Source: Candidatus Roizmanbacteria bacterium CG_4_10_14_0_2_um_filter_39_13
GTDB lineage: Bacteria > Patescibacteriota > Microgenomatia > UBA1406 > GWC2-37-13
Reading direction: 5' to 3'
NCBI GenBank assembly: GCA_002792315.1
Contig: PFOB01000016.1
Span: 1-35,063, forward strand
Length of the DNA: 35,063 bases
Shown here: in pieces, positions 547-23,372 of the stretch
How the letters are laid out: each line of letters starts with the position of its first letter
Numbering within the stretch: position 1 is the first letter of the stretch
Position numbers and translations under genes: made by a program
Notes under the pieces: generated by a model
Told to the model about the DNA's origin: nothing
The model's input: only the letters and a program-made list of their open reading frames with translations
The model's database searches: none

Positions 547-678
547 CATTAAATGTACCATAAAACACGTGGTTCATGAATCATCCTGAGAATACCTCAA
601 TTGATACTCAATGACCGTGTTTGACCTGCTGCAATGTGTACTCCAATCGGGTATAATAAGAATGCGAATTCAGACATT

Positions 679-2160
679 ATGTTAAAAAAAGCAGAAAATA
701 TACTCTCAAAAATTCCTTCAGCAGACTACGCTGATGTACGGATCGTGGATCAATCTTCAGAAGATGTCGCGACAAAAGATGGAGTTGTTGAAGCTTTAGA
801 ATCTTCACAATCACTTGGGTACAATGTTCGCATTCTCAAAGATGGTGTTTGGGGTTTTGCGGCATCGTTTGATTTGAGTGAAAAGGGGATTGATGAAACG
901 ATCAAAAAAGCGCTCGCCATTGTCAAGGCCTCAACTGCACATAAAACCTCCAATGTTCAACTCGACGAGCTTGAACCAATTATTGATAGTTACAAAACGC
1001 CCATAAAAGAAGACCCATTTCAAGTCCCGATGGAGGAGAAAATAAAGATTCTTCTTGCGGCTGATAATGCACAAAAAGTAAGTGATAAAATTGCGGTCAC
1101 GCAAGCCTCTTATCAGGCAAACCGCGAGCGAAAATATTTTGTCTCAAGCATCGGTTCAAAAATTGATCAAGATATCGTGTGGACGGGAGCGGGAACCGAT
1201 ACGACCGCAGTTGATGGACCAGAGCTTCAAAATCGCTCTTATCCAAATTCGTTCCGTGGACAAAATCAGACCCGTGGATTTGAGTTGGTTCGTGAGCTTG
1301 AGCTTGAGAAACATGCCCCAAAATATGCGCAAGAAGCAGTTGAGCTTCTCACGGCAGATACATGTCCCACCGGAGAATTTGACATCATCCTTGACGGAAA
1401 TCAACTTGCGCTTCAAATCCATGAAAGCTGTGGTCATGCGGTCGAGCTTGATCGCGTACTAGGTTATGAGGCCTCATATGCGGGCACGAGCTTTTTGACG
1501 ACAGAAAAATTGTTTAACTTTCAATATGGATCAGATATTGTAAATCTCACCGCAGATGCTACTATCCCGGGTGGTTTGGGAACCTTTGGATATGATGATG
1601 AAGGAGTGCCCGCACAACGGACCTATTTAGTGAAGGAAGGGAAGTTTCAAGATTATATTACCTCTCGAGACACCGTTTCAAAACTTCACGACCTAAATCC
1701 AAATTATAATAAAAAAAGCAATGGTACAGTACGTGCATCATCGTGGAGTAGATTACCAATGATTCGAATGACCAATATCAATTTAGAGCCCGGTGGAGAA
1801 GCGGGGACGGGGAAAGCATGGTCGCTTGATGAGATGATTGCTGATACGAAATATGGTATTTTCATGTCAACCAATCGCTCGTGGAGTATTGACGACCGAA
1901 GGTACAACTTTCAGTTCGGTACCGAAATCGCTTGGGAGATCAAAGATGGGAAGCTTGGCCGAATGCTCAAAAATCCGACATATCAGGGAATTACCCCTCA
2001 GTTTTGGAACAGTTGTGATGCCATATGTGGACGACCGGAGTGGACGGTCTGGGGGACGCCAAACTGTGGCAAAGGGCAACCAAGTCAAGTGATGTACACG
2101 GGGCACGGTGCGAGTCCTGCGCGATTTAAGAAGGTAAAAGTTGGTGTTGTAAAGTGGTAA
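679..2160 (+). CDS. tldD: TldD-family metalloprotease subunit
   Basis: ORF 634..2160; the likely start is the internal ATG at 679 (MLKKAENILSKIP). Contains the HExxxH motif HESCGH and GGLGTFGYDDEGVPAQRT, typical of TldD. Confidence 0.93.
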   Translation: MLKKAENILSKIPSADYADVRIVDQSSEDVATKDGVVEALESSQSLGYNVRILKDGVWGFAASFDLSEKGIDETIKKALAIVKASTAHKTSNVQLDELEPIIDSYKTPIKEDPFQVPMEEKIKILLAADNAQKVSDKIAVTQASYQANRERKYFVSSIGSKIDQDIVWTGAGTDTTAVDGPELQNRSYPNSFRGQNQTRGFELVRELELEKHAPKYAQEAVELLTADTCPTGEFDIILDGNQLALQIHESCGHAVELDRVLGYEASYAGTSFLTTEKLFNFQYGSDIVNLTADATIPGGLGTFGYDDEGVPAQRTYLVKEGKFQDYITSRDTVSKLHDLNPNYNKKSNGTVRASSWSRLPMIRMTNINLEPGGEAGTGKAWSLDEMIADTKYGIFMSTNRSWSIDDRRYNFQFGTEIAWEIKDGKLGRMLKNPTYQGITPQFWNSCDAICGRPEWTVWGTPNCGKGQPSQVMYTGHGASPARFKKVKVGVVKW

Positions 2161-2174
2161 GAAATAACAAAACT

Positions 2175-3509
2175 ATGTTAGGAGAAGAAAAATTAAAACA
2201 AATAGCACAAAAAGCACTCTCATTTTCAAATGCTTACCAAGCTGAAGTATTACTTTCAGTTTCGGGAAATGCATTGACTCGTTTTGCAAACAATCAAATT
2301 CATCAGAATGTCGCATGGAAAAATCTGGGAATTTCAGCCCGGGTGATTATTGATAAAAAAATTGGTGTTGCAAGTACGAATGCTTTTGATAATGAGTCCC
2401 TCAAAGACGTAATTGCCCGTGCTACCGAGCTTGCCAATCTGCAAGAACCAGATCCCGGATTTGTTTCTCTGCCAAAGCCACAAAAAATAATAAAAGTGTC
2501 AGATGATATTCACCATGCAACTGAAGAAGAGATGGCGGCTGGCGCTCATATCGTGATCAAAAAAGCTCAGAAAGAAAATCTGATCGCTTCTGGCGCATAT
2601 GCAAATGATGTCTCAGAGCTTGCGGTCGCAAACTCACTCGGTGTCTGGGCACATCATGCCGGTTCATCCTGCAATCTTTCAACAATCGTGCTTGGTAAAG
2701 ATTCGAGTGGATTTGCCGCAGATGTCGCACGAACCCCTTCGGAAGTCAATGCAGAATTAGTCGCTGAAACGGCAGTACAAAAAACTCTTGAAAGTAAAAA
2801 TCCACAAGATATTGAGCCGGGAGAATACGAAGTCATTTTAGAGCCACAAGCGGTATCTGAAATGATGGCATTTTTTCAATGGTATGGGCCAAATGCACGT
2901 ATTTATCATGAAGGAGCGAGTCCGCTTTCAGGCAAAATGGGCACCCAAGTTTTTGGTAAAAATATCACGATCATCGATGACCCATTTCATGAAAGTGTCT
3001 TTCCTATGCCCTTTGATTTTGAAGGGCAACCAAAAAAAGCGATTACATTTATAAAAAATGGCGTCCTTGAAAATATTGCTTACGATTCTTATCATGCATT
3101 GAAGTATCATCAAAAAAATACTGGGCATGCACTTCCCGCACCAAATACCATGGGACCCATTCCGCTCCACATGTATATTGCAGCAGGGGATAAGACACGA
3201 GATGCGATGATCAATAATGTAAAGCGCGGTCTTCTTGTCACGAGACTTTGGTATGTACGAGTATTAAATCCAAAAATGCTCAATGTCACCGGCATGACAC
3301 GGGACGCGACATTTCTCATAGAAAATGGAAAAATTATTCGACCCGTTAAAAACCTTAGATTCAATCAAAGTATTCCAGAGGCCCTAAACAATGTGGTTGG
3401 CATTGAAAACAAACTGACGCCCTTGGCCAGTTTTGAAGGAGAGATGATTAGTCTTGCGCCAACATTGCATATTAGTAAATGGGAATTTAGTAGTGCAACT
3501 CTGTTTTGA
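2175..3509 (+). CDS. tldE: TldE/PmbA-family protein (partner of TldD)
   Basis: ORF 2154..3509 directly downstream of tldD; likely start at 2175. TldE/PmbA-like sequence (SGNALTRFANNQIHQNV...) without the HExxxH motif. Confidence 0.88.
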   Translation: MLGEEKLKQIAQKALSFSNAYQAEVLLSVSGNALTRFANNQIHQNVAWKNLGISARVIIDKKIGVASTNAFDNESLKDVIARATELANLQEPDPGFVSLPKPQKIIKVSDDIHHATEEEMAAGAHIVIKKAQKENLIASGAYANDVSELAVANSLGVWAHHAGSSCNLSTIVLGKDSSGFAADVARTPSEVNAELVAETAVQKTLESKNPQDIEPGEYEVILEPQAVSEMMAFFQWYGPNARIYHEGASPLSGKMGTQVFGKNITIIDDPFHESVFPMPFDFEGQPKKAITFIKNGVLENIAYDSYHALKYHQKNTGHALPAPNTMGPIPLHMYIAAGDKTRDAMINNVKRGLLVTRLWYVRVLNPKMLNVTGMTRDATFLIENGKIIRPVKNLRFNQSIPEALNNVVGIENKLTPLASFEGEMISLAPTLHISKWEFSSATLF

Positions 3510-5051: not shown

Positions 5052-5079
5052 AAACTCTCCGAAATGGAGAGTTTTTTTT
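5052..5079 (+). terminator. Intrinsic terminator / trp attenuator (AAACTCTCC-GAAAT-GGAGAGTTT, run of 8 T)
   Basis: 9-bp stem with 5-nt loop; the T tract (5072-5079) supplies the last A-T pairs and continues as the U tail, 11 nt upstream of the likely trpE start (5091). Confidence 0.88.
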
Positions 5080-5090
5080 ATGAAACAAAT

Positions 5091-6452
5091 ATGAAAATAC
5101 CAAAGATATTGTTATCAAACAAACCACATTCCGCCAAAATTGCTGAAGATTTGGATTTTTTTGAATTGTTCAAAAAAATCCAAAATGATCAAGAAACCTG
5201 TTTTATCCTCGAATCATTGGGGGAGGAAAGTAACCGATCGAGATATTCGATTATTGGATTTGACCCTCAGATAATTGTCAGCTCAAAAGGGTCGGGCCTC
5301 ACTTTGTCCCAACAGGGAAAAACAGATGTCGAATACCAGAGCGATAATCCATATTTTGATCTTCAAAAACTCTTTCCAGATCGGGTGATGGCGCGAGATT
5401 ATGCCGGCGGCTTGATTGGATATCTGGGATTTGATTTATTTGAGAATATCGAACCATCAGTAAAAGTAAAGTCTCATCCTAATTTTGAACGATTGAAATT
5501 TGGCGTTTATACCGATGGCCTGGTATATGACAAAATGACTGGAGAGGTGTTTTACTTTTACTACAACAATAGTAGGTTTAATTTAGTCAAATCATACCTT
5601 GCAAAACAAATTGAAAAGACAAATGAGGTTTCTGTGACCTTCAAACAATATTCAATGACAAAACAACAATATGGAGATGTTTTCAGTAAGGTCAAAGAAG
5701 ATATTCGAGCAGGTTTCATTTTTCAGTGTGTGGTCGGATTTCAAGGAGAATACTTGATTGAGGGAAATGATATTGGTATATATGAAAAACTTCGGCGAGT
5801 GAACCCCTCACCACATATGTATTATTTAAAATTTGGCAAACAAAAAATTATCGGTGCAAGTCCTGAACTACTCTTTCGACTGAGAAACAACGATGTTGAG
5901 ACGTTTCCTTTGGCAGGAACAATACGTCGTGGAAAGGACATGAATGAAGATGTCAAACTAGCGCGAGCACTTCTCAATGATCCAAAAGAGCAGGCAGAAC
6001 ATAAAATGCTCGTAGATCTTCATCGAAATGACCTCGGGAGGATTGCAAAGGTTGGATCGATAAAGATTCAAAAATTGATGGATATAAAAAAATACAGTCA
6101 TGTGCAGCATATTTCGAGTGAGATATCTGGAACACTTGACGCACGTCAAGATATGTTTAGCGCCCTGGTGAGCTGTTATCCGGCGGGTACTCTTACCGGG
6201 GCGCCAAAGATAGAGGCGGTAAGGTTACTTGAAAAATATGAGACGAAGCCGCGTGGCGTTTATGGTGGCGCAGTCGGCTATTTTGGATTTAATGGCGATT
6301 GTGTGTTTGCCATACCCATTCGTTCGCTTTTTATTTCAGGAAACAAAGGATACACGCAAGCGGGAAGTGGTATCGTTCTGGACTCAGAAATTGACATTGA
6401 GTATGAAGAAATTATGAACAAGTTGAAAGCGATGGAGGTGACACTATCATGA
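5091..6452 (+). CDS. trpE: Anthranilate synthase component I
   Basis: Contains FILESLGEESNRSRYSIIGFDP, LAGTIRRGKDMNEDVKLA, PAGTLTGAPKIEAVRLLE. The track start at 5064 falls in the terminator loop, so 5091 (MKIPKILLSNK) is preferred. Confidence 0.96.
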   Translation: MKIPKILLSNKPHSAKIAEDLDFFELFKKIQNDQETCFILESLGEESNRSRYSIIGFDPQIIVSSKGSGLTLSQQGKTDVEYQSDNPYFDLQKLFPDRVMARDYAGGLIGYLGFDLFENIEPSVKVKSHPNFERLKFGVYTDGLVYDKMTGEVFYFYYNNSRFNLVKSYLAKQIEKTNEVSVTFKQYSMTKQQYGDVFSKVKEDIRAGFIFQCVVGFQGEYLIEGNDIGIYEKLRRVNPSPHMYYLKFGKQKIIGASPELLFRLRNNDVETFPLAGTIRRGKDMNEDVKLARALLNDPKEQAEHKMLVDLHRNDLGRIAKVGSIKIQKLMDIKKYSHVQHISSEISGTLDARQDMFSALVSCYPAGTLTGAPKIEAVRLLEKYETKPRGVYGGAVGYFGFNGDCVFAIPIRSLFISGNKGYTQAGSGIVLDSEIDIEYEEIMNKLKAMEVTLS

Positions 6453-7042
6453 AAATACTTATCATAGACAATTACGATTCATTCACCTTTAACTTGTATC
6501 AATTTGCGGGCGAAATATTATTGGAAGAAAAACTTGTGCCGAATATTACCGTAAAACGGAATGATGAGATCAATCTGTCACAAATACAAAAAGAAAGTTA
6601 TGATCACGTTATCATATCACCTGGGCCTGGAGATCCATCAGATGCAGCATATTTTGGCGTATGTGCCGACGTTATTTTGAAAATTGGTAAAACAATTCCG
6701 GTGTTGGGCGTGTGCTTAGGAATGCAAGGAATAGGACATTATTTTGGAGGCAAAATTGTCAAAGCCACGACTCCCATGCATGGAAAAACCAGTTGTATTT
6801 TCCATGATGAAAAAGGAGTGTTTAAAGGGCTGTCACAAAGACTGGAAGTGATGCGATACCACTCGCTTGTGGTTGATCGAAAAACAATACCCTCATGTCT
6901 TGAGATCACGGCAACATCACAAGTCACTGATGAGATCATGGGTCTTCGTCATAAATCATATCCGATAGAGGGAGTTCAATTTCATCCAGAATCTATTTTT
7001 ACCGAAAGCGGAAAACAGTTATTACGCAACTTTTTATTATGA
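6449..7042 (+). CDS. trpG: Anthranilate synthase component II (glutamine amidotransferase)
   Basis: 197 aa; IDNYDSFTFNL, SPGPGDPSDA, VLGVCLGMQ, GVQFHPESI; ATGA overlap with trpE. Confidence 0.96.
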   Translation: MKILIIDNYDSFTFNLYQFAGEILLEEKLVPNITVKRNDEINLSQIQKESYDHVIISPGPGDPSDAAYFGVCADVILKIGKTIPVLGVCLGMQGIGHYFGGKIVKATTPMHGKTSCIFHDEKGVFKGLSQRLEVMRYHSLVVDRKTIPSCLEITATSQVTDEIMGLRHKSYPIEGVQFHPESIFTESGKQLLRNFLL

Positions 7043-8025
7043 AAAACTTAACACGAATAGAGTCACAAAAACTTATCGAGCAAATGATGTCCGGCGAGAT
7101 ATCTCAGAAGGAAATGGCCAAAATTCTCAAAGACTTAGCTCAAAAAGGGGAAACCCTCGACGAGATTATCGGCGCTATTTATGCTATGAGGTCTCACATG
7201 AAGTCTATTCAAGCGCCAAATAGCTCGGTGGATACATGTGGCACCGGTGGGGATGGAAAAAACACATTCAACATATCGACTGCCGCGGCACTTGTTGTCG
7301 CTGGTGCCGGTGTACCGGTTGTAAAGCACGGTAATCGGAAAGCATCCAGCAAATGTGGGAGCGCCGATGTTCTTGAGGAGCTTGGCGTCAATATTAATCT
7401 CAAACCCTATCAAGCGGAGGAAATTCTTGAATCAATCGGAATCGTATTTCTTTTTGCTCCTATATACCATCCAGCAATGGCACAGGTTGTACCCATTCGC
7501 AAACAGTTAGGTATTCGAACCATATTTAATTTCCTTGGTCCATTTTGTAATCCGGCAAGAGTACGTCGACAGGTTATCGGCGTTCCAAATCTTGAAGTAT
7601 TAGAAACGCTTTCTCATGTTGCAACAGAGCTTGAATACAAATATTTGGCCCTTGTGACGAGCAGGGACGGAATTGATGAGATCAGTCCTACAGCGCCGTC
7701 TTTCATTCGAATAATTAAAAATTCACACGTATCATCACTACAGATAGATCCAAAGAAATATGGCATTCATCACGTTTCACTAGATGATATTATTGGCGGT
7801 GACGCGCGGAAAAATGCATCCATGATTCATTCGGTATTATCTGGAAAGAAGGGAACTCTACGCGATACTGTTCTGTTGAACGCAGCGATGACACTCCTTG
7901 TTTCTGGAAAAGCATTAGACATGAATCATGGTATCGAACTTGCGTCGAAATCTATCGATTCAGGAGCAGCAAAAAATATTTTAAAAGCACTTATTCATTC
8001 ATCAAATAATCATGAGCATTCTTGA
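7039..8025 (+). CDS. trpD: Anthranilate phosphoribosyltransferase
   Basis: 328 aa; DTCGTGGDGKNTFNISTAAALVVAGAGVPVVKHGNRKASSKCGSADVLEELG. Confidence 0.97.
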   Translation: MKNLTRIESQKLIEQMMSGEISQKEMAKILKDLAQKGETLDEIIGAIYAMRSHMKSIQAPNSSVDTCGTGGDGKNTFNISTAAALVVAGAGVPVVKHGNRKASSKCGSADVLEELGVNINLKPYQAEEILESIGIVFLFAPIYHPAMAQVVPIRKQLGIRTIFNFLGPFCNPARVRRQVIGVPNLEVLETLSHVATELEYKYLALVTSRDGIDEISPTAPSFIRIIKNSHVSSLQIDPKKYGIHHVSLDDIIGGDARKNASMIHSVLSGKKGTLRDTVLLNAAMTLLVSGKALDMNHGIELASKSIDSGAAKNILKALIHSSNNHEHS

Positions 8026-8776
8026 AGAAATAATCAAATATAAACAGAAGGAATTAGATGGGCTCTCAACGTTATCAGCATTACTAACCTCGGAGGTTAG
8101 TAATGCTTCAGTATCATTTACTGACGCGATAACACGTTCTAGAGTAGGTATCATTGCTGAAATAAAAAAGAAATCACTGAGTGCCGGAGACTTGGCTGGC
8201 GATCAAGATCTAGTTACCAAAGCTCAAAGCTACGGAGATGCGGGAGCCGATGCTCTATCGGTAGTGACTGAAGATAAATATTTTGGTGGAAGTGTGCAAT
8301 TATTCCAGGAAATTCGGAATGTAACTACTCTTCCCATGCTTATGAAAGATTTTATCATCCATCCCTCTCAAGTTTTGCAAGCAGAGCAATCTGGCGCTGA
8401 TGCAATTCTTGTCATCGCTGCACTCCGCAAGTATTTTCATCCGGATTTGTTGTCAACTTTGGCAGCATCATCTATAACTCCGGTTATAGAAGTTGCAACT
8501 ATCGATGAATTATCTTTCCCCTGTGTACAACGGGCAGAAGTCATCGGGGTGAATGCGCGTGACCTCAATACATTTCAAGTAAATATTGATAGAGCATGTT
8601 CGATAATTAAGAAAATATCAAAAAATACAACTGCGATTGCATTTTCTGGTGTGAATTCTCGAAGCGATATTAAGCGATATAAAGGGGCAGGGGCAGTGGC
8701 GGTTCTGGTAGGGGAGAAACTCATGAGGGCAAAAGATGTTACATCTGTTATTCACGAATTAAAATATGAAAATTAA
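8012..8776 (+). CDS. trpC: Indole-3-glycerol phosphate synthase
   Basis: 254 aa; IIAEIKKKSLSAGDL, LPMLMKDFIIHPSQVLQA, IGVNARDLNTF. Confidence 0.96.
   Translation: MSILEEIIKYKQKELDGLSTLSALLTSEVSNASVSFTDAITRSRVGIIAEIKKKSLSAGDLAGDQDLVTKAQSYGDAGADALSVVTEDKYFGGSVQLFQEIRNVTTLPMLMKDFIIHPSQVLQAEQSGADAILVIAALRKYFHPDLLSTLAASSITPVIEVATIDELSFPCVQRAEVIGVNARDLNTFQVNIDRACSIIKKISKNTTAIAFSGVNSRSDIKRYKGAGAVAVLVGEKLMRAKDVTSVIHELKYEN
8077..8107 (+). repeat. 31-nt inverted repeat (15-bp arms, 1-nt centre) inside trpC: AGCATTACTAACCTC-G-GAGGTTAGTAATGCT
   Basis: Arms are exact reverse complements. Confidence 0.95.
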
Positions 8777-9389
8777 AATCTGTGGAATACAATCAATTCA
8801 AGATGCTCAAACCGTCTTAAAATCGGGAGCAGATTTTATTGGCATTAACTTTGTACGAAACTCAAAGCGGCTAGTGACCGTTGATATTGGTCGTGAGATT
8901 ATCCAATATATTCATTCGACAGGATCAGATAGTAAAACGGTGGGAGTTTTCCAGAAGCAAACAAGCGACTATGTCAATATGGTGGCAGACAATGTAGGTT
9001 TAGATTTTGTGCAACTGCATGGTGACGAAACACCAGAATATTGCTCGCGTATAGAACGACCGATTATTAAGGCTTTCAAACTTGAGTCGAGTTTTGATGT
9101 TGAGAAAGCATTCCGAAGCATGAGTAAATATCACGTTGCACATTTTCTTGTTGATCGGCGTGTGCAAGGTGAGGGGGAACCATTGCAGATTGATAAATTG
9201 AGGGAATTAGCAAAATTTACTACCTTTTTCCTTGCAGGAGGATTAACGCCAATAAATACTACATCCATTGCACTTGCAGTAAGTCCTTATGGATTAGACG
9301 TTGCCGGGGGAGTAGAAACTGATCGAAAAATTAATGTGGAGAAAGTGCGCTCAATTATTATGAGTTGTAGCAATTATGAAACTTCTTAA
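8766..9389 (+). CDS. trpF: Phosphoribosylanthranilate isomerase
   Basis: 207 aa; [56 protein letters not shown]. Confidence 0.95.
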
Positions 9390-10623
9390 TTTCAAAACAA
9401 AATACGACGCAGATGCCAGCGGACATTTTGGCCCGTTTGGCGGTCGATATGCTCCGGAGATGCTTATTCCCGCTTTGGAAGAGTTAGAGCGAGAGTACTT
9501 GGCGATAAAAAAAGATCCTGACTTTGAAAAAGAATTTCTTTATTATCTTAAAACATACGTAGGACGACCATCGCCCCTATATTTTGCTGAAAATCTTACC
9601 AAAAAACTAGGTGGAGCAAAAATATATATGAAAAATGAAGGGTTAAATCATACCGGCGCACACAAGATAAATCATTGTTTGGGGCAGGCGCTTTTGGCCA
9701 AACGTATGGGCAAAAAGCGCCTGATTGCCGAGACGGGCGCAGGTCAACATGGTGTGGCGGCAGCAACAGTGGCGGCCCGATTTGGGTTCGATTGTACCGT
9801 GTATATGGGTGAAGAAGATATAAAAAGGCAGAGACCGAATGTGTTTTGGATGCAACGACTTGGTGCCACGGTTGTACCGGTTATGGAAGGTTCGCGAACG
9901 CTTAAAGATGCGGTGAATGCTGCACTCAAAGACTGGATCACAAATGTTGAAGACTCTCATTATTTATTGGGGTCTACGCTGGGACCACATCCGTTTCCAT
10001 CTCTAAACCGTGACTTTCAACAAATTATTGGATATGAAGTAAAACAACAAATACAAGAATTTGAAGGTAGATTGCCCGATATGCTTGTGGCATGTGTGAG
10101 CGGTGGAAGCAATGCGCTCGGACTCTTTTACCGATTTTTGGAGGATTCATCTGTTCGACTCATCGGTGTGGAGGCAGGTGGTGAGGGAGTGAATAAAAAG
10201 GGCAGACATGCCTCTCGGTTTGCAGGTGGCACGCTGGGTATAGTTCAGGGCTATAAAACAATCTTTTTGCAGGATGCTGATGGAAATATAGCCGAAACTC
10301 ACAGTATTTCAGCTGGATTGGATTACCCTGGTATAGGGCCTCAATTTGCCCTCTTGAAAGATATGGGGCGGGTAGAATTTTCATCTGCAACTGACAAGGA
10401 GACTTTGCATGCGTTCAATCTTACGGTAAAACTCGAAGGCATTTTGCCGGCACTTGAATCAGCACACGCCATAGCAGAAGTCATTAAACAGGCACCGAAA
10501 CTTTCCAAAGACAAAATCATTGTAGTAAATATTTCTGGGCGCGCAGATAAAGATATTTTTATTGTGGCAGAGGCACTCGGTGACAAGGACTGGGATCAGT
10601 TTATAAAGGAGCAAGCAAAATGA
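9376..10623 (+). CDS. trpB: Tryptophan synthase beta chain
   Basis: 415 aa; [64 protein letters not shown]. Confidence 0.98.
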
Positions 10624-11372
10624 AAAAAATAAAACTAATGACACACGTAGTGGTGGGGTATCCTGATATCGCATCAACAAATGAACTAGTGAAAGCAATG
10701 GAACAGGCTGGTGCAGATTATGTGGAGTTACAAATCCCATTTTCTGATCCTATTGCCGATGGGCCTACAATAATGAAAGCCTGTGATACTGCTCTCAAAA
10801 AAGGTGTGACAGTGCGAGATTGTCTGAGAGTCATGAAAACTTTATCTGATCAAGTATCAACCCCACTATTTTTCATGGGATATTACAACACGGTATTCCA
10901 CTTCGGAGTTGAGAAGTTTTGCAAAGCGGCAAAATCTGCTGGCGCCTATGGACTCATTATTCCCGATATGCCACCCGATGAAGAGCAACATGAACACTTC
11001 ATCAAAGCATGTCGCACACATCATTTAGCTCAAATCCGTGTGGTTACACCAGCAAGCTCCTCTCATCGTTTGAAACTCAATGCGGAGGTTTCTGATGACT
11101 TTGTGTATTGTGTGAGCCATTTTGGAGTTACGGGGTCATCAGTCAGCAAAAAGGTTGGATTTGAATCGTACCTCAAACGAGTAAAAAAATATTTCAAAAT
11201 TCCGATCGCTGTTGGATTTGGCATATCGGGGAGAGAAGATGTTCGACAAGTTGAACCTTATGCGGACATCGTTGTTGTCGGGAGTGCAATAATCAGAATT
11301 ATTGAAAAGTCACAATCATTTAAGAGAGCGTTGGAGGAAATAATAATGCTCATTCGTAGTCTACGAGCATGA
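10620..11372 (+). CDS. trpA: Tryptophan synthase alpha chain
   Basis: 250 aa; [50 protein letters not shown] overlap with trpB. Confidence 0.95.
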
Positions 11373-20429: not shown

Positions 20430-20520
20430 TTAGTTGAGTATAAAAAATTAATCTCTAATGTCAAGTGCAATATGATCATTTTATATTAATTGGCTCAGGG
20501 TGATAGTATAATGGAGATTG

Positions 20521-21369
20521 ATGACAAAAATATTCAAAACACTCCATCAAATATTTTATCCACATGCAATTGTTGCACGCTGGGTACGTTTCGTGAACTA
20601 TATTCCAAAACGGATCAGAATCATTATTGTGACATTCATCATGACAACGGTACTTGCTCTTGCTACTTTTTTTTCCTTCAATAGTACCTGGATGTATTTT
20701 ATATTGATTCTTGCAGTAATAGCTTATGTGACATCTTATCTTGCAATATTTGAAGGTATCGATGGCACCGAGATGATTATGCTCTTTATTATGCCGGTAT
20801 TATTTGTACTTTCATTGTACGTATTTTACTCATTATTACCGGTTCGATGGCTCACACGAATTCCATTTTTGGCACTGTTTAGTCTGGGGTATTATGCGAT
20901 GCTCCTTTGTTCAAACATTTTTAATATTGGGGTAGAGAAGAGTATACAGCTCTATCGAGCAGCATTTTCCGTAAATTACATTTCACAAACACTCGTCATT
21001 TTTATTATTGCAATTGTGATTTTGTCATTTCGACTTAATTACTTCTTAACAAGTATGTTTATGGGAGGAGTCATGTTTATCACCTCAATGCAGATTCTTT
21101 GGACCGTTGATCTCAATGAGCATATTGAGAGGAAAATCTTAATATATAGTGGCGTTGTCTCGCTTCTTCTCTTTGAGCTCATGGTTTTGCTCTCCTTTGT
21201 CCCATTAGCAATAAATGTTTACGCATTGATTGTCACAACAGCCTATTATTCAATTATTGGCATGGTAACAAATTATATAGGGGACCGTTTGTATAAGACA
21301 GTGATTCGTGAGTACATCTTTGTGTTGATCTTCGTCATAATCATCGCTCTTTTGACCTTGCAATGGTAA
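20521..21369 (+). CDS. Multi-pass membrane protein, function unknown
   Basis: ORF 20518..21369 (first codon TTG; ATG at 20521); about eight hydrophobic segments, no recognisable catalytic motif. Confidence 0.7.
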   Translation: MTKIFKTLHQIFYPHAIVARWVRFVNYIPKRIRIIIVTFIMTTVLALATFFSFNSTWMYFILILAVIAYVTSYLAIFEGIDGTEMIMLFIMPVLFVLSLYVFYSLLPVRWLTRIPFLALFSLGYYAMLLCSNIFNIGVEKSIQLYRAAFSVNYISQTLVIFIIAIVILSFRLNYFLTSMFMGGVMFITSMQILWTVDLNEHIERKILIYSGVVSLLLFELMVLLSFVPLAINVYALIVTTAYYSIIGMVTNYIGDRLYKTVIREYIFVLIFVIIIALLTLQW

Positions 21370-21445
21370 TAATTGAGCACAAATATTCTTTATAAGAATC
21401 TTACCCGCACAAGCCAAAGGAGAGGAGAGGGGAGTGAAAAGCATA

Positions 21446-21525
21446 CGTACGTGAATAATAGTTATATCCTATAATAATTGTTAATTAATTATATAAATAC
21501 TATAAGATATATAATTTCACGTACG
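21446..21525. repeat. Long imperfect hairpin: CGTACGTGAA ... TTCACGTACG with AT-rich inner pairing
   Basis: Exact 10-bp terminal arms; inner TATATCCTATA / TATAAGATATA pair with one mismatch. Confidence 0.85.
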
Positions 21526-21659
21526 GGAATTTTTTAACACGTAAAATGATATAGTTGTATCTATTTGTGGATAACTATCTCTTTATACGGCACTTCAACC
21601 GCAAAATGATAGATATAGCGCTATATATGGCTCTATTCTGAAAGAATTACATGGGTATG

Positions 21660-21693
21660 TTTTTATCATTTTTATGCTGAAAAATGATAAAAA
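21660..21693. repeat. Perfect 14-bp stem hairpin TTTTTATCATTTTT-ATGCTG-AAAAATGATAAAAA
   Basis: Arms are exact reverse complements, 6-nt loop. Confidence 0.95.
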
Positions 21694-21948
21694 AGAGTGT
21701 TATAAAGCTCTAAAATTAATCCTAATGTGTATGATCACTAGCGAGATAAGCATATACTGGCATTTTAGTTAATTTCGATCGTGGCCAATCATGGTCTTTT
21801 ATTAAGAGAATAGTGACAAATAAATATTTCATTTCAAAAATAAAAAACAAAGAAATAAATAAATAATGAATGAAATACTTCCGTTATTGAGTGGTATGCA
21901 AAATCGTCAAATTTTGGTTAAAAGCACGTGAGAGCGAAAGGATATGAG

Positions 21949-21976
21949 ACGTCGTAAAATGAATCTTTTACGACGT
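21949..21976. repeat. Perfect 11-bp stem hairpin ACGTCGTAAAA-TGAATC-TTTTACGACGT
   Basis: Arms are exact reverse complements, 6-nt loop. Confidence 0.95.
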
Positions 21977-22271
21977 TAGCCTTAATTTCGAGAAGAGGAG
22001 AGCGTTTTTGGTATATTTCATTTTTTTGTTTTTTATTGTTTTTATTTCCCCTTCTCTATTGGCTATTGTGCTCAAAAATTTGATTTTATTTTTCATTATT
22101 TCTCGCCTTTTTTGATTTGGAGCAAATTGCCATATAAAGATCATTACAAGGCTCTAAATCGAAAATATTGAGTTCATTCTCTCCTCTCTTTGGGATGCCT
22201 CAGTCAAAGTAGGTAGTTAGATAAGGAATCGTATTTGGTTGGGGACTGCTATGACAGTATAAATCAATATA

Positions 22272-23372
22272 TCACACACCGCGGCGCCAATTGAGATATC
22301 TATCGCTCAAATAACTGAATAGATACATTGGAGAGATGATGAAATCTTGCGTATAGAGATAGTCAACTTGAAATCCACCAAAGCCATGTTTAAACAAACT
22401 TAAGCCTTTCCAGGATTTTGGCGTGCGCCCCGGATCATGAATTCCGTGAAAACTGTAGTATTTACATCCCCGACGTTTGGCCTCGAGAATTGCATGCCAT
22501 TGGAGGAGGTAAGCGGCTGGGTATTTGGTATGAATCGATGCTCCCTGATGATAGAAGCCTGAGGACTTAGAAAAGATGACTAAGGATGCAGCTAAATTCT
22601 GAGAGGCACCTTCCTGGGCGAATTCTGGGGGTAACACCTCTTGTGGACTGTTGAGAAAGCCTGAATTGAATATAATAGCATTGCCTGCAGCTTCAAATGC
22701 GTCAAATTCATGCCGAATATATATATCTGAGTATGGAGTGAATTGTTCTCGATCTGCAGTTACGTGGTACAGGTCCAGAAATTTTTTCAATCCTTCCGAT
22801 GACTCATTTGAGATTACCGAAATATGTTCCCGCTCCGCACGACGAATTGCATACCGTGTATTTTTCCGCATATTTGCGAGAATTTCATTTTCTGATTGCG
22901 TAAGATCAATAACCCACATGGTTTCCGCATGAACATAAATAGGAGCGATTCGATATCCAAGTGCGCGAAAAAGGCTCACATGATCGTCATCGCGAGCCAT
23001 GGGAGGCGCAATGCGTATAAACCAAAATCCTTCTGAACGCGCCATATTTGTCAAATACCGGTGAAATTCAGCAAGCTGTGTACCAATAGATTTAAACTGT
23101 TGTGAAAAGATTTTCTGGGTAAGTCTATCTTGAAGAATATCAAAAAGCGGCCCATGAGGGATAAATAAATATTTTCCACGTTTTGAACGCACCTTGACAA
23201 TAAGAGCGATTGCTACGAGGTTGTTATTATGGTATAAACCAACTCGTTCAATATCGTTATTACAGAGTTTTTGAAACTCGCCCCATTCCCATGAGTGATG
23301 AAATGAAGGAGATCCGACCCGATTATAGAATGCATTCCATTCAGATTTGTTTGTTACAACACGTATATTCAT
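22272..23372 (-). CDS. FemAB/FemX-family peptidyltransferase (GNAT fold)
   Basis: 366 aa; SFHHSWEWGEFQ, GKYLFIPHGPLFD, MRKNTRYAIRRAERE, YLLQWHAILEAKRRGCKYYSFHGI. Confidence 0.92.
   Translation of the reverse strand: MNIRVVTNKSEWNAFYNRVGSPSFHHSWEWGEFQKLCNNDIERVGLYHNNNLVAIALIVKVRSKRGKYLFIPHGPLFDILQDRLTQKIFSQQFKSIGTQLAEFHRYLTNMARSEGFWFIRIAPPMARDDDHVSLFRALGYRIAPIYVHAETMWVIDLTQSENEILANMRKNTRYAIRRAEREHISVISNESSEGLKKFLDLYHVTADREQFTPYSDIYIRHEFDAFEAAGNAIIFNSGFLNSPQEVLPPEFAQEGASQNLAASLVIFSKSSGFYHQGASIHTKYPAAYLLQWHAILEAKRRGCKYYSFHGIHDPGRTPKSWKGLSLFKHGFGGFQVDYLYTQDFIISPMYLFSYLSDRYLNWRRGV

Follow-up and report, generated by a model that had tools for sequence, protein, structure and literature searches.

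A very probable chromosome dimer resolution locus (dif) in Candidatus Roizmanbacteria and the oriented array beside it

Introduction

The XerCD/dif systems of E. coli and B. subtilis combine a 28-bp site, made of two 11-bp arms around a 6-bp centre, with converging G-rich motifs of the KOPS (FtsK-orienting polar sequence) or SRS (SpoIIIE recognition sequence) type, FtsK-gamma and XerC/D-type recombinases. The XerH/difH and XerS/difSL systems use one recombinase on a nearly symmetric site, and an xer gene kept next to the site is a hallmark of such single-recombinase systems (PMC5357621); archaeal XerA/dif, also with a single recombinase and a 28-bp site, has been described as FtsK-independent (PMC5357621). 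A dif site usually lies near the GC-skew shift (PMC3025954), and the coincidence of the two has been used to argue whether replication ends at dif, in the proposal of Hendrickson and Lawrence versus Kono et al. (PMC3025954, PMC3317982). Here we analysed a 35,063-nt stretch of DNA (the window) from Candidatus Roizmanbacteria bacterium CG_4_10_14_0_2_um_filter_39_13 (contig PFOB01000016.1), a member of the Candidate Phyla Radiation (CPR). A 902-bp intergenic gap in it, at 21370-22271, is very probably the chromosome dimer resolution locus (dif) of the Candidatus Roizmanbacteria chromosome; this confidence, gained from sequence comparison, applies to the dif reading and not to the role of the array of further elements that adjoins the site.

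The locus has all the components of XerCD/dif named above; it differs in that the arms of the window copy are perfectly inverted, the family encodes one intact and one degenerate Xer, the site is off the midpoint and an array adjoins it. As in the XerH and XerS systems, there is apparently one active recombinase, the site is nearly symmetric and the xer gene lies beside it in out-group genomes, whereas the Xer found here (310-312 aa) is closest to XerD/XerA and not to the 354-362 aa type, the centre is 6 bp long and a second Xer paralogue persists. XerA of archaea is among the nearest solved structures to this Xer, but FtsK-gamma and polar motifs are present here. The plasmid sites cer and psi likewise have accessory DNA on one side of an Xer site; here the site is chromosomal and the array longer. 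The Tus-Ter and RTP-Ter systems resemble the locus in their oriented repeats near the terminus, and the skew pattern reported below is compatible with partial fork arrest. As far as the open-access literature goes, this is an old kind of element that has apparently not been described before in CPR: no account of a CPR dif was found in that literature, which omits most subscription papers.

Results and Discussion

A conserved 28-bp site between two convergent genes

The gap is bounded by a plus-strand gene that stops at 21369 and a minus-strand gene that stops at 22272. A preliminary description, made from the letters alone, had regarded it as a structured non-coding region between two gene 3' ends that serves neither neighbour as promoter space. 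The gap is confirmed and contains no credible open reading frame. All the dyads named there are present: 21446-21525, 21613-21626, 21660-21693 (14-bp perfect arms) and 21949-21976 (11-bp perfect arms, 6-bp centre), flanked by a purine/pyrimidine inverted repeat (21414-21429/22179-22194). Two perfect inverted repeats with arms of at least 10 bp occur in the gap versus 0.12 expected (60 dinucleotide shuffles, maximum 1), while for arms of at least 8 bp the excess (3 versus 0.9) is not significant (8% of shuffles). The statement that no tmRNA, RNase P, signal recognition particle RNA, rRNA or tRNA is recognisable agrees with our scans of the gap: no tRNA or tmRNA was found, and the Rfam scan gave no family at gathering score and none at E<=1 within the gap.

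In a DNA search of 58 relatives the sole very short and very conserved part was window 21949-21976. An alignment of 20 relatives shows that exactly 28 bp are kept, mostly as ACGTCGTAAAW-TRWATC-TTTTACGACGT, between flanks that are unrelated, and the 11+6+11 geometry follows the plan of dif. The conservation in close relatives on which the preliminary description had made its reading depend is clearly present. When 85,488 GTDB species were searched, the site or a close variant was found in 68 contigs with one match per contig; the contig titles are nearly all CPR/Patescibacteria, mostly Roizmanbacteria, with others from Woesebacteria, Saccharibacteria, Nomurabacteria, Moraniibacteriota, Taylorbacteria and WWE3 and a few called just 'bacterium'. 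In Roizmanbacteria RIFOXYA2_FULL_38_14 (G013), a near-complete chromosome of which 16.9 kb is outside the analysis, the site is unique and lies at contig position 677.7 kb, and each of the three matching phylum genomes has a single match. A divergent site, TAGTCGCACAA-TATATC-TTTTGCGACGT, was found beside the xer gene of a genome from another family of the class (G054, 112,655-112,682, minus strand). These sites yield a candidate dif consensus for a part of the CPR, with which CPR genomes could be oriented and checked. An identical 28-mer, ATGTCGTACAATATATCTTTTACGACAT, was also noted in L077, L086, L115, L127, L130 and L134, contigs titled Saccharibacteria, Paceibacterota, Taylorbacteria and Nomurabacteria.

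A prophage or mobile element was considered and rejected: the site pattern has no match in the viral contigs searched, the site is single-copy, and nearly all Roizmanbacteria loci, across species, have the same left neighbour, a DUF5656-like gene; on the right the neighbours vary.

From its folding, the gap might be taken for the gene of a large structured non-coding RNA. The z-scores on the two strands are -3.8/-4.9 for 21436-21530, -3.9/-4.6 for 21940-21985 and -4.6/-6.6 for the entire gap, and the repeats of the array described below are hairpin-shaped. Folding that is strong on both strands, however, fits palindromic DNA sites and is not diagnostic of RNA; the gap has no match to an Rfam family, as a known structured RNA would have, conservation is highest in a DNA palindrome whose flanks are not conserved, and covariation of the repeat arms as a stem is not significant (p = 0.07). 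We consider such an RNA very unlikely.

Converging FtsK-type motifs

The G-rich, KOPS-like motif GGGGRR switches strand at the site. At 1-4 kb in the flanks of the 68 loci, 134 plus and 20 minus copies are found on the left and 44 plus and 126 minus copies on the right; within the window the corresponding counts are 17:6 and 6:17. In G013, maximum likelihood places the switch at the site (677.7-680 kb) and prefers this position to the GC-skew maximum by 30 log units. A coding-strand artefact was ruled out by the finding that the G013 flip occurs at dif in plus- and minus-strand genes alike. About 400 kb was sampled from each of two further genomes: G031, near-complete and from the same family as G013, and G054. 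In G031 the flip falls between the sampled windows that bracket the site; the counts in G054 are 41:10 in 90-110 kb and 7:40 in 110.4-130.4 kb, around the divergent site (~112.66 kb), and these 20-kb windows locate the flip at that site with a precision of a few kb. Copies of the KOPS pattern of E. coli, GGGNAGGG, are also directed toward dif (59:9 in the 68 loci, 27:8 in G013). The L. lactis-type GAAGAAG motif showed no polarity toward dif, and the short polar words AGAGGAG and GGGAGAG did not place the switch there. Separately, TAGAGAAG was observed to be strongly polar toward dif (82:6 in the 68 loci, 17:2 in G013); it may be another orienting word or be coding in part.

Xer and FtsK

FtsK-gamma is present in 7/7 genomes tested. 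The intact Xer, 312 aa long in G000 (contig C4), carries the catalytic motifs TGLRVSEL, HxLRHS and QIYTHV, and its nearest PDB relative is XerD (E 5e-38). In four out-group genomes, G051, G054, G055 and G058 (WWE3), the single intact xer gene adjoins the site. A second Xer, represented by a protein of 287 aa, is located near dnaA in G013, G010 and G031. Its motifs in the Roizmanbacteria family read TGIKIGEL, NDLRNT and mostly ERFLNL, with the changes R to K, H to N and mostly Y to F (G024 keeps the Y), while the same four out-groups retain R and Y. The simplest reading of these sequences is a gradual loss of activity of the second Xer, which would make Roizmanbacteria a family with an apparently dying second recombinase. 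In the Xer gene of G031 (L191:718-2919, G031:C1, minus strand) the HxLRH motif is interrupted by an insert of ~420 aa whose ends are intein-like (C start, HN-S end).

At division, FtsK would read the polar motifs and pump the two chromosome arms; once the dif copies have been brought together, it would switch on the single active Xer. The latter would bind both near-identical arms and cross over in the 6-bp centre, turning the dimer into two monomers.

The 28-bp arms and centre between variable flanks, the single copy, the converging polar motifs and the encoded Xer and FtsK-gamma make it very probable that the locus is dif. Among the three candidates of the preliminary description, the replication/segregation locus is thus the one retained, with the conserved core as the dif site, and the large structured non-coding RNA and the decayed mobile element are not supported. 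Some observations weigh against the assignment. The exact pattern occurs in just 3/294 sampled phylum genomes, so that other CPR sites must differ or went unrecognised; beside the Xer genes of G115, G129, G059, G061, G106 and G121 no dif-like site was recognised. Where xer and the site share a contig in Roizmanbacteria they are not adjacent but ~15-55 kb apart. Finally, 140 kb separate the site from the cumulative skew maximum of G013, a distance that was treated as a departure from the dif norm and not as an exclusion.

Off-centre position and GC skew

The dif site is not opposite dnaA: its position from dnaA, as a fraction of the circle, is 0.70 in G013, 0.74 in G031 and 0.64 in G054. A second or fossil replication origin in the gap could be imagined from its one oriented DnaA box beside AT-rich dyads and repeats. 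This was rejected and is most improbable, as the GC-skew minimum of G013 is at dnaA (1038 kb), the gap has just one DnaA box, and in G013 and G054 the skew around the site changes toward minus, in the sense of a terminus.

Between the midpoint and dif, GGGGRR polarity in G013 is 89% long-arm-like (confidence interval 73-105%). Over the same interval the GC skew at third codon positions (GC3 skew), controlled for gene strand, is 17-45% long-arm-like in the three genomes and not fully short-arm-like, the values for G031 and G054 being coarser owing to the limited sampling of these two. Since the polarity flips at dif while the GC3 skew from midpoint to dif is intermediate, motif polarity and mutational skew are uncoupled: motif polarity follows dif, and mutational skew follows where forks meet. 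In G054 skew and polarity change together. In the window the motif flips at the site, yet GC skew is positive to either side of it (0.086 and 0.043). With dif and the skew shift far apart, two long-confused ideas on where replication ends become separable in natural genomes.

The array beside dif

The remaining dyads form a conserved array that lies mostly on one side of dif and is partly recognisable across the class (Table 1). Left of dif it comprises a polypurine tract, a ACGTACGTG/CCTATARTA dyad, one DnaA box and 42-bp repeats, AGCCTCAAAAATNNNNATTTAGAYTGNTATNACARTCTAAAT. In the left flanks of the 68 loci, runs of 12 purines are present on the plus strand in 59/68 and on the minus strand in 16/68, ACGNWCGTG is found in 41/68 and CCTATARTA in 50/68, and a DnaA box occurs in 44/68 in plus orientation and 0 in minus, the expectation being ~0.01 per kb and strand. 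In G054 and G055 parts of the array can be recognised, including a DnaA box at -487 and -553, respectively; no array was seen at several CPR sites outside the class. A repeat profile from which the window and the G013 record had been held out has its four best window matches all inside the gap; two of them overlap right of dif, so three places are marked in Table 1. In the genus alignment the strong hairpin at 21660-21693 is not itself conserved. The repeat core, TTTAGAYTG-NTATNA-CARTCTAAA (84 repeats), consists of inverted arms around a 6-bp centre. To judge from their sequences, the array elements other than the dif core look like DNA sites for protein binding.

Table 1. Positions of the locus features in the window, and records of the second Xer-like protein.
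Feature	Position	Strand	Remarks
dif site, ACGTCGTAAAA (arm) TGAATC (centre) TTTTACGACGT (arm)	21949..21976	+	28-bp conservation, motif flip
Polypurine tract AAAGGAGAGGAGAGGGGAG, pointing to dif, KOPS/SRS-like	21416..21434	+	kept just past left gene stop in relatives
TTCTCTCCTCTCTTT, matching tract also pointing to dif	22177..22191	-	inverted repeat I4
Nested dyad ACGTACGTGAA ... TATCCTATAATAATT ... ACTATAAGATA ... TTCACGTACG	21445..21525	.	fold z -3.8/-4.9
DnaA box TGTGGATAA	21566..21574	+	constant orientation
Array repeat 1, diverged, holds dyad ATATAGCGCTATAT	21597..21638	+	held-out profile 6.3 bits, third-best window match
Array repeat 2, overlapping the 21660-21693 hairpin	21674..21715	+	held-out profile 20.2 bits, best window match
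Array repeat 3, right of dif	22118..22159	+	held-out profile 2.0 bits, arms part 15.2 bits; counterpart in genus relatives
DUF5656-like hydrophobic protein gene, left neighbour	20518..21369	+	Pfam PF18900 E 1.3e-4, just below cut-off
Second Xer-like protein records	L188 (G000:C54), L190, L192, L220-L222, L240		

The array could be a polar, Ter-like fork barrier, in which a bound protein slows the short-arm fork and termination spreads between dif and the midpoint. Such a barrier is compatible with dif and is possible, though we propose it only tentatively. The off-centre positions and the intermediate GC3 skew point in this direction, as do the mostly uniform orientation of the repeats and the placement of the array: in G013, G031 and G054 it is found toward the short arm, and in G006, a genome of two contigs, toward dnaA. 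The side of the array may be inherited, however, so these four genomes cannot be counted as independent cases; the intermediate skew could also stem from a past rearrangement or asynchronous forks, and the window's own array is reduced.

Alternatively, and equally compatible with dif, the array could form a nucleoprotein complex that assists Xer, like the accessory DNA of plasmid cer/psi; the degenerate second Xer might be the protein that binds it. The arm-centre-arm geometry of the 84 repeats resembles that of an Xer site, a second Xer-like protein that has lost catalytic residues is encoded in the Roizmanbacteria family, and the repeats cluster near dif, where 5 of the top 7 matches in the G013 genome lie. 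Against this, several CPR sites outside the class are without the array, and no chromosomal dif is known to depend on accessory DNA; an accessory role is doubtful on balance.

An array on the short-replichore side might be bound by a protein which either holds back forks arriving from there or organises the synapse, with the result that some of the region beyond dif is copied by the opposite fork; we advance this as a tentative model. A broader proposal, which we regard as rather unlikely, is that of a class-wide CPR terminus module: a single active Xer would act at a strongly off-centre dif, and the adjacent oriented array, perhaps bound by the catalytically dead Xer paralogue, would be a polar fork barrier or synapse organiser unlike known Ter or cer.

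Other genes in the window

Further from the locus, the window carries a complete-looking tryptophan operon at 5064-11372 (trpE, G, D, C, F, B and A by Pfam), which is notable for a 1.2-Mb CPR genome, and a pair of adjoining PmbA/TldD metallopeptidase genes at 634-3509.
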